From assembly GCF_025869515.1 (NCBI RefSeq), contig NZ_JAOZVR010000012.1:1-64000 (forward strand): a DNA stretch of 64,000 nt, read 5' to 3'. Made by a program: the position numbers and the translations under genes. Each line of letters begins with the position of its first letter. Position 1 is the first letter of the stretch. Positions 30,243 through 33,205 of this stretch are shown piece by piece. The DNA comes from Ferrovibrio sp. (GTDB lineage: Bacteria > Pseudomonadota > Alphaproteobacteria > Ferrovibrionales > Ferrovibrionaceae). The notes beneath the pieces are model-generated. The model had not been told where the DNA came from, searched no databases, and was given only the letters and a program-made list of their open reading frames with translations.

Positions 30243-30419
30243 ATGGACTGGGACGAGGCCGAGCGGCGCAAGCCGGCGCTGCCGAAATTCGATACGATGT
30301 CGATCGAGGATCTCGAGGAGCGGATCGTCGCACTTGAAGCCGAGATCGGCACCATCCGCGCTGTCATCAAGGCCAAGCAGGCGGCGCGCGGTTCCGCCGA
30401 CAACTTCTTTAAGAAATAG
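30243..30419 (+). CDS. DUF1192 family small protein
   Basis: A 58-residue protein, easy to miss by length. It has the DUF1192 pattern: an acidic start MDWDEAERRKPALPKFDTMS, a short coiled coil (IEDLEERIVALEAEIGTIRA) and a basic end with SADNFFKK. The ATG at 30243 has GGGAGG 5 nt upstream. Such proteins are common in Rhodospirillales/Rhizobiales and have no assigned role. Its last 11 bp overlap convergently with the end of the unknown gene on the minus strand. Confidence 0.88.
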   Translation: MDWDEAERRKPALPKFDTMSIEDLEERIVALEAEIGTIRAVIKAKQAARGSADNFFKK

Positions 30420-30934: not shown

Positions 30935-31567
30935 TCAGCGTGCCCGAACAGTTCTCACGATCATGTCGACGGCAGCAGTGGCGCGGTCGTGCCAGACGGT
31001 TTTGTCCAGATCGGCGGCCAGGCGCGGGTCATGAAAGCGGCTCATCAGGTCGTCGATGCTGACGGCGAGTTTTTCCGCCGGCTCGCCCCGGAAAGCGCCG
31101 GCCGTGCTGCCCTCGGCCAGCAGGCCGGCCAGATGGCGGCGGATATGGCTGCGATGCTGGCGCAGCAGCCCGGCGAGATTGCGCATCACCTCGTCCAGCA
31201 CTTCCACCAGACAGGGATCAGACAGGTAACGCCTTGTATTTTCTGCATCCATCAGCAGGAACGCCTGCAGCCGTGCGGCCGGGCTGCGGCCATGGTCGCG
31301 GGCGATCGCGGCCAGCCGGGTCTCGTCCTCGGCCAGCCAGCGGGTTGCCAGCCCCGCCACGATGGCGCGTTTGTTCTGGTAATGCCGGTAGACCGCTGTG
31401 CGGGCGATGCCGGCCTCGGCCGCAATGTCCTCGATGCGGGTGCGTTTGCCGCCCAGCCGGCGAAAACAGGCCAAGGCGGCATCCAGCAGCCGATCCTGAA
31501 CCGGTCCCGCCAGGCCTTCGGCGGGCGATTCAGGCTCGGCTTGTGACACGGCAGCCAATTTTGTCAT
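30935..31567 (-). CDS. TetR/AcrR family transcriptional regulator
   Basis: A 210-residue repressor. The N-terminal helix-turn-helix is at about 24-68 (LLDAALACFRRLGGKRTRIE, then DIAAEAGIARTAVYRHYQNK). The C-terminal part is helical and ligand-binding, with no recognisable ligand signature. ATG 31567 is used, giving a short polar leader before the HTH. It lies upstream of the unknown gene on the same strand, with the 25-bp palindrome between them. The divergent side carries the candidate small RNA and metY. Confidence 0.92.
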   Translation of the reverse strand: MTKLAAVSQAEPESPAEGLAGPVQDRLLDAALACFRRLGGKRTRIEDIAAEAGIARTAVYRHYQNKRAIVAGLATRWLAEDETRLAAIARDHGRSPAARLQAFLLMDAENTRRYLSDPCLVEVLDEVMRNLAGLLRQHRSHIRRHLAGLLAEGSTAGAFRGEPAEKLAVSIDDLMSRFHDPRLAADLDKTVWHDRATAAVDMIVRTVRAR

Positions 31568-31618
31568 GCCTCGACCATACAGGATTGCCGCCGCTTCACG
31601 AAATCTTAAGTGCGGCCG

Positions 31619-31717
31619 GCCATAGTCACCTCAGTTACCGATTTTAGTCCGGTCATAGTTTCCTCCCTGTTGGTTTTGACCTTCAGGCCGCCGGCCGCTT
31701 ACCGGCGGCCTTTTTTT
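31619..31717 (+). ncRNA. candidate trans-acting small RNA with anti-Shine-Dalgarno tract
   Basis: A strong plus-strand terminator (31685-31717) has no plus-strand gene before it, because tetR lies on the other strand. About 98 nt upstream is a weak promoter-like TTGCCG-N16-TAAGTG (31585-31612). The putative transcript has a small stem ACCG/CGGT (31637-31653), a single-stranded TCCTCCC (31661-31667) complementary to ribosome binding sites, then the terminator hairpin. This layout resembles alphaproteobacterial sRNAs with exposed CCUCC motifs. The 5' end is a guess. Confidence 0.4.
31685..31717 (+). terminator. orphan plus-strand terminator
   Basis: A 10-bp perfect stem (AGGCCGCCGG/CCGGCGGCCT, 7-nt loop) is followed by seven T. 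Only the plus strand has the T run. No plus-strand gene ends within 1.2 kb upstream. Confidence 0.85.
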
Positions 31718-31746: not shown

Positions 31747-31776
31747 TTGACTGATCCGGGCACGGCGTGGATTAAT
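31747..31776 (+). promoter_or_regulatory. possible metY promoter
   Basis: TTGACT (31747-31752), an 18-bp spacer, then ATTAAT (31771-31776). Matches to sigma-70 consensus are 5/6 and 4/6. It would start transcription near 31783, about 108 nt before the metY ATG. Confidence 0.4.
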
Positions 31777-31807
31777 CGCCGCAGTTTCGAGGTTGAGGCA
31801 AGATTGT

Positions 31808-31848
31808 CGGGTCGCCCCGTCCGCCAGGATGAGGCGGCCCGCTTTTTT
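31808..31848 (+). terminator. terminator inside the metY leader
   Basis: CGGGTCGCC (31808-31816) pairs with GGCGGCCCG (31833-31841), 9 bp with one G-U. An alternative shorter hairpin is CCGCC/GGCGG within the same sequence. TTTTTT (31843-31848) follows directly. It lies 43 bp before the metY start on the same strand, so it would stop transcription before the gene unless overridden. Confidence 0.65.
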
Positions 31849-31891: not shown

Positions 31892-33205
31892 ATGCTGGAA
31901 CCCAAATTCTTCCGTTTCGATACGCTCAGCCTGCATGCAGGCCAGCAGCCCGATCCGACGACCGGCGCGCGCGCCGTGCCGATCTACCAGACCACCTCCT
32001 ATGTTTTCCGCGACGCAGATCATGCAGCCACACTGTTCAACCTTGAGCGCGGCGGCCATATCTATTCGCGTATCTCTAATCCCACTGTTGCGGTGCTGGA
32101 AGAACGTCTTGCGGCACTCGAAGGCGGGGTCGGCGCCGTTTGCACGGCATCGGGCCAGGCGGCGATGCACTTGGCCATCGTCACGCTGATGGGGCAGGGC
32201 GGGCATATCGTTGCCTCGCGCAATATATACGGCGGCAGCTACAACATTCTCGTGCATACGCTGCCGCGCTTCGGCATCACCACCACCTTCGTCGATCCGC
32301 GCGACCATGCGGCGATCAAGGCGGCGATCAAGCCCGAGACGCGGCTGGTGTTCGGCGAGATTCTCGGCAATCCGGGCCTGGAAGTGCTGGATGTGCCGGC
32401 GGTGGCCAAGATTGCGCATGACGCCAAAATTCCCCTGATGCTCGACTGCACCTTTGCCACGCCGTATCTGTTCCGCGGTTTCGAGCATGGCGCCGATCTG
32501 GTGATGCATTCGGTGACAAAATTCCTCGGCGGCCATGGTGTTGCCATCGGTGGAGCCCTGATCGATTCCGGCCGTTTCGACTGGGAATCCTCCGGCAAGT
32601 TCCCGACCCTGACCGAACCTTATGCGGGCTATCACGGCCTCGATTTTGCCGAGGAATTCGGCCCGGCCGCCTTCATCATGCGCGCGCGCGCGGAAGGCCT
32701 GCGCGATTTCGGCGCCTGCATGTCGCCGACCAATGCCTTCCACCTGCTGCAGGGCGTCGAGACGCTGCCGCTGCGCATGGCACGCCATGTTGAGAACAGC
32801 CGCAAAGTGGTAGCTTTCCTGAAAAGCCATCTGGCCGTCGCCTGGGTGTCGTATCCCGAACTGGAGGAACACCCGGATCACGCGCTGGCGAAAACACTGC
32901 TGCCAAAGGGCTGTGGCGCGGTGTTCTCCTTCGGCGTGAAGGGTGGGCGCGAGGCCGGCCGGGTGCTGATCGAAACGCTGCAGGTCTTCTCGCATCTGGC
33001 CAATGTCGGCGATGCCAAGTCGCTGGTGATTCATCCGGCCAGCACCACGCATCAGCAGATGAGCGCGCCCGAACTGAAGGCTGCCGGCATCGGTGAGGAA
33101 CTGGTGCGGCTTTCGGTTGGCCTGGAAGACGCGCAGGATCTGATCGACGATCTCAATCAGGCGCTTCGCGCATCGCAAAAGGCCGTCAAGGCAGCAGCGG
33201 AATAA
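31892..33205 (+). CDS. metY: O-acetylhomoserine sulfhydrylase / homocysteine synthase
   Basis: PLP enzyme of the Cys/Met metabolism family, making homocysteine from O-acetylhomoserine and sulfide. The 437-residue length fits MetY rather than the shorter MetB/MetZ. Key segments are [53 protein letters not shown], and the Schiff-base Lys210 in [11 protein letters not shown]. The C-terminal [13 protein letters not shown] and [17 protein letters not shown] also fit. The ATG at 31892 has GGGAGG 5 nt upstream. It heads a plus-strand run with the alpha/beta hydrolase and thiE. Its leader carries a terminator, suggesting attenuation. Confidence 0.94.

Follow-up and report, generated by a model that had tools for sequence, protein, structure and literature searches.

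We identify, directly upstream of metY in Ferrovibrio sp., a locus that probably encodes an independently transcribed, trans-acting anti-Shine-Dalgarno small RNA (sRNA) of ~86 nt that would repress uptake and catabolic genes and appears to be of a metY-linked type. As judged from the DNA of the window (the whole 64,000-nucleotide stretch that was analysed) and of its relatives, the conserved small-RNA locus at this position is real and very probably transcribed; its kind, an anti-Shine-Dalgarno sRNA, is an ordinary one. The RNA would be transcribed separately from metY (from ~31632 to 31717), its unpaired CCUCCCU core would pair with GGGAGG ribosome-binding sites, and the terminator after the core, being of Hfq-binding type, would presumably engage Hfq (an hfq gene is present in the genome). 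Such pairing would block translation, chiefly of solute-binding (uptake) and catabolic genes, in the mode of AbcR and NfeR1 in rhizobia; in S. meliloti, the anti-Shine-Dalgarno motifs of AbcR1/2 and NfeR1 act at the ribosome-binding site of mRNAs for solute-binding proteins, which they repress (PMC8844928). On this reading, many Alphaproteobacteria keep such an RNA upstream of metY, and the window RNA would be its Ferrovibrio form. Detailed work on sRNAs that tune nutrient uptake in this anti-Shine-Dalgarno fashion has been done mostly in rhizobia and related bacteria; a version that stays at the methionine gene metY in 14 family-level groups suggests that sulfur amino acid metabolism and uptake control have long been connected. 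A sequence-only reading of this DNA had proposed a trans-acting sRNA layout, and this is supported by the sequence, by synteny, by covariance models and by the predicted targets.

Architecture of the predicted sRNA locus

The locus and its surroundings comprise the following features.

30935..31567, minus strand: divergent TetR-family regulator (PF00440 and PF17935)
31594..31612, plus strand: conserved promoter-like box CTTCACGAAATCTTAAGTG (TTCAC-N6-TTAAG)
31621..31626, plus strand: putative -10-like hexamer CATAGT, from the alignment of relatives; no sigma-70 consensus match
31632..31717, plus strand: predicted small RNA, a conserved block between the -10-like site and the terminator in nine relatives (start approximate, ~+-5 nt); model matches at 31641-31717 (R1) and 31607-31717 (R2)
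31658..31672, plus strand: anti-Shine-Dalgarno core GTTTCCTCCCTGTTG, predicted to be unpaired and accessible; TTxCCTCCCTGTTG invariant in ten aligned orthologues
31685..31717, plus strand: intrinsic terminator, its stem retained with altered sequence in relatives
31747..31848, plus strand: second conserved element, with promoter-like TTGACT/ATTAAT, GAGGTTGAGGC (31789-31799), a GC hairpin and a T-run
31892..33205, plus strand: metY, O-acetylhomoserine aminocarboxypropyltransferase (NF006004, 799 bits)

The sequence-only reading had described a strong plus-strand terminator without a preceding gene, an exposed TCCTCCC complementary to ribosome-binding sites, and a position upstream of metY, all of which hold. 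The terminator stem has 10 pairs (9 of them G-C, 31685-31711) and is followed by T7 up to 31717; the flanking TetR gene lies on the minus strand, and the nearest plausible plus-strand ORF on the 5' side (58 aa) ends at 30419, leaving 1.2 kb of plus strand free of genes. TCCTCCC occupies 31661-31667, with a mean unpaired probability of 0.71 for CCUCCCU in the predicted fold. A 121-nt stretch folded better than its shuffles (z -2.6), the terminator contributing most, and Rfam at its own cut-offs reported one tRNA only in the whole window.

The upstream parts are better read differently from the weak promoter and small 5' hairpin first proposed. A sigma-70 consensus search gave 0 promoters (0.9 expected by chance), and the better candidate is the conserved promoter-like box, which reads TTCAC-N6-TTAAG in the window and in eight of the nine Ferrovibrio relatives and has TTCAT in the ninth (G004); the hairpin falls mostly within sequence that conservation marks as promoter. 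Because this box and the -10-like hexamer (GATACT, CATACT or TAAAGT in relatives) lie upstream, the alignment suggests a start site near 31632, so that the proposal of a small RNA stands while its 5' end is likelier here than at 31610-31630. Lying between the divergent TetR gene and the sRNA, the box also forms an imperfect palindrome (CACgaAAtcTTaaGTG) and could possibly be an operator; against this, similar boxes persist in G006, where a TetR homologue was not found. A TetR-type gene occupies the equivalent place in most, not all, Ferrovibrio.

TCCTCCC might instead merely complement a minus-strand ribosome-binding site (GGGAGGAAACTATG) belonging to a small ORF ahead of the TetR gene, and the arrangement GGGAGG-AAACT-ATG with a 16-codon frame does have that appearance. 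We regard this as exceedingly unlikely: the frame runs to 16, 3, 3 and 19 codons in G000 (the window's genome), G001, G002 and G005, and the ATG is lost in more distant relatives, whereas the core and the plus-strand terminator persist. A minus-strand leader peptide is accordingly refuted by the alignment, its frame not being conserved.

Conservation within Ferrovibrio

Both GTTTCCTCCCTGTTG and a strong terminator are kept upstream of metY in 9/9 Ferrovibrio relatives. Conservation beyond the terminator, which the sequence-only reading had set as a test of its proposal, is evident at two depths, GTTTCCTCCCTGTTG being invariant in the genus and CCTCCCTG recurring in 13 further family-level groups. 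The terminator stems differ among Ferrovibrio species yet still pair; in a ten-sequence alignment, 91% of stem cells are paired, with both-side changes at two pairs (a modest covariation). Four relatives share 80-88% identity with the window across 158-288 bases spanning the sRNA stretch, and in three of these four the sequence from terminator to metY is largely deleted.

An exact search with the core in named genomes recovered real Ferrovibrio-type loci upstream of metY (including UBA7691 and CROMO_A_67). Matches in Leisingera, Tabrizicola and one actinomycete look like the ribosome-binding sites of opposite-strand genes, and so are target-like; the remaining exact matches are probably due to chance.

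A probable metY-linked RNA across Alphaproteobacteria

We scanned 97 metY upstream regions from Alphaproteobacteria, strand by strand, for a CCTCCC-type core with a terminator close behind, and define here as metY-linked anti-Shine-Dalgarno RNAs those in which a CCTCCC core and a terminator lie on the same strand no more than 600 nt ahead of metY. This layout, which the window RNA shares, was present in 31/97 regions from 14 family-level groups (the G099 match is doubtful), in 0 on the reverse strand and in 0 in each of five rounds of dinucleotide shuffling. Neighbours on the far side of the RNA vary by lineage (TetR, quinone oxidoreductase, 3-hydroxybutyrate dehydrogenase-like, sugar kinase, metallo-hydrolase), leaving metY as the constant neighbour. 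In G151 and G239, the gene 5' of the RNA resembles 3-hydroxybutyrate dehydrogenase (a fragment, under the model cut-off); S. meliloti MmgR also concerns polyhydroxybutyrate (PMC7143759).

Same-strand linkage to metY in so many groups, together with a terminator that in G001 ends only ~60 nt ahead of metY, could also point to a metY leader, starting at the upstream box, whose terminator acts as an attenuator or riboswitch governing read-through into metY. This is improbable, since the conserved part is a short unpaired C-rich stretch rather than a folded sensor, Rfam gave no riboswitch or leader match, another promoter-like element and terminator intervene in most relatives, and the RNA lies anywhere between 113 and 426 nt from metY.

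Returning to the separate small RNA, we built a covariance model (R2) from fifteen members of the metY-linked group with Ferrovibrio excluded. Its sole good match in the 64 kb window was 31607-31717 (24.5 bits, E 2.2e-4 at 107 kb; next match 7.4 bits), so that the window RNA is recognized by a model free of its own genus, albeit one that is not specific, canonical mmgR RNAs scoring alike (21-26 bits). Among Ferrovibrio relatives, six scored 21-33 bits and G004 10.6 bits (the G006 and G007 loci were not reported); G017, from another genus of the family, reached 53.7 bits. The like scores of mmgR RNAs and the window indicate that the core design is common to both, and assignment to the metY-linked group therefore rests on sequence and position jointly.

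A second conserved element between the sRNA and metY

In many genomes the gap between sRNA and metY holds a TTGAC promoter-like box, a GC hairpin that ends in a T-run and, as a short conserved stretch, GGCAAGTTGAACAGGG or ACAGGTTGAGG (in Ferrovibrio, GAGGTTGAGGC). This second element (fold z -4.0 in the window, where 31747-31848 has no Rfam match) was found in 31/97 metY upstream regions, namely in 18/30 with the sRNA versus 13/67 others (counts that ignore kinship). Predicted pairing of this stretch with the sRNA core is strong in several lineages (-43.3, -39.0 and -35.5 kcal/mol in G045, G138 and G349, respectively; z -4.2 to -4.6). In seven genera, each from a different family, the energies of cognate pairing added up to -226.6 kcal/mol (permutation mean -191.7), a sum that only the real assignment reached (1 of 5040; 2 of 5040 for the spacer part alone), with element stretches picked by eye as homologous. 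That the real assignment beats all permutations indicates that the two vary together, making the element a candidate RNA-RNA partner and, in our view, the most interesting lead to emerge.

Such covariation raises the prospect that the adjacent element is the main partner of the sRNA, as a sponge or a target within the metY leader, with general repression secondary. The permutation result and the single-genome z-scores speak for this, but the stretches were chosen by eye, and in Ferrovibrio the two pair only weakly (-11 to -12.5 kcal/mol, the window at -12.5, versus -27.6 to -38.1 in the seven other genera), so that the window does not carry the complementary second element seen elsewhere in the metY-linked group; the element is moreover absent in G001, G002 and G005. 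Weak pairing and element loss exclude this as the main role in the genus, and we hold the proposal unlikely, preferring repression in trans. The element itself could serve as a sponge, could be a target site in the metY leader, or could be an RNA in its own right. Tentatively, and with more doubt than belief, we envisage two matching tandem small RNAs upstream of metY in many Alphaproteobacteria, in which the GGCAAGUUGAACAGGG of the terminator-ended element would mimic the ribosome-binding site of a target; as a sponge or a sensor, the element would couple the repression of nutrient uptake to the metabolism of methionine and sulfur. In Ferrovibrio the sRNA would have been kept and the element eroded or lost.

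Predicted targets

Genome scans for targets used sequence patterns only. The pattern AGGGAGGAA-N1-8-ATG precedes nine genes in the genome, 5/9 of which encode solute-binding proteins from four families (TctC, DctP twice, SBP_bac_8 and Peripla_BP_6); the other four encode a DUF1302 protein, an acyl-CoA dehydrogenase, a MaoC protein and an altronate dehydratase-type protein. Control AAGGAGG sites gave 0/10 solute-binding proteins. In six relatives the pattern again returned solute-binding proteins and acyl-CoA enzymes, three species sharing a LivJ-like gene, while SBP_bac_8-like and MaoC genes each recur in two (all assigned by resemblance only). The comparison involves few genes, and AGGGAGGAA may be no more than a common feature of genes for solute-binding proteins.

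The perfect 12-nt complement CAGGGAGGAAAC occurs in the window's own genome only opposite the window RNA and one paralogue, and no target carries it; with the exact complement confined to two sRNA loci, pairing with targets would be shorter. The seed is common to the window RNA and canonical mmgR, such that targets are not assignable to one RNA and the two regulons would overlap.

Relationship to known sRNA families

The window RNA reaches neither of two Rfam gathering cut-offs, scoring 23.6 bits against suhB/MmgR (RF00519; cut-off 41; orthologues 25-32 bits) and 18.6 bits against BjrC1505 (RF02356; cut-off 50). The BjrC1505 cut-off is passed by the metY-linked RNAs of four genomes (64-73 bits in G184, G058 and G280, 57 bits in G018), so Rfam already includes part of the metY-linked group, as BjrC1505. 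BjrC1505 has the same core and terminator layout as the window RNA, although the highest-scoring member recovered (G026, 91 bits) does not lie next to a metY gene. The literature searched, which covered few subscription journals, held no account of BjrC1505 function or of its metY link; nor did it describe metY linkage for RNAs of this kind.

MmgR/suhB (alpha-r8) resembles the window RNA in having GUUUCCUCCCU, a short spacer and a GC terminator at about equal length; it differs in its spacer (AGAC, versus GUUG in the window RNA) and in a conserved 5' hairpin, which is not seen in the window RNA. A separate canonical mmgR lies in the same genome (G000:C77:61041-61114, 74 bits). Two more CCTCCC-plus-terminator RNAs also occur there (G000:C95:44750-44833, L073, and G000:C49:45965-46044, L074), with orthologues in other Ferrovibrio.

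Unpaired anti-Shine-Dalgarno motifs are likewise shared with AbcR1/2 (alpha-r15) and NfeR1 (alpha-r14), but the window RNA is shorter, carries one motif (a single CCUCCC) instead of two or three, and is neither tandem nor beside lsrB, its one copy lying between TetR and metY where AbcR has two motifs and tandem copies at lsrB. Most likely the window RNA works like MmgR, BjrC1505 and AbcR, and we assign it to none of them. Upstream of metY in G312 and G389 (one family), in the region of the metY-linked RNA, an extra CTCCTCCC sits in the loop of a possible upstream hairpin, as in AbcR, from which AbcR and the metY-linked RNAs may be of common origin.
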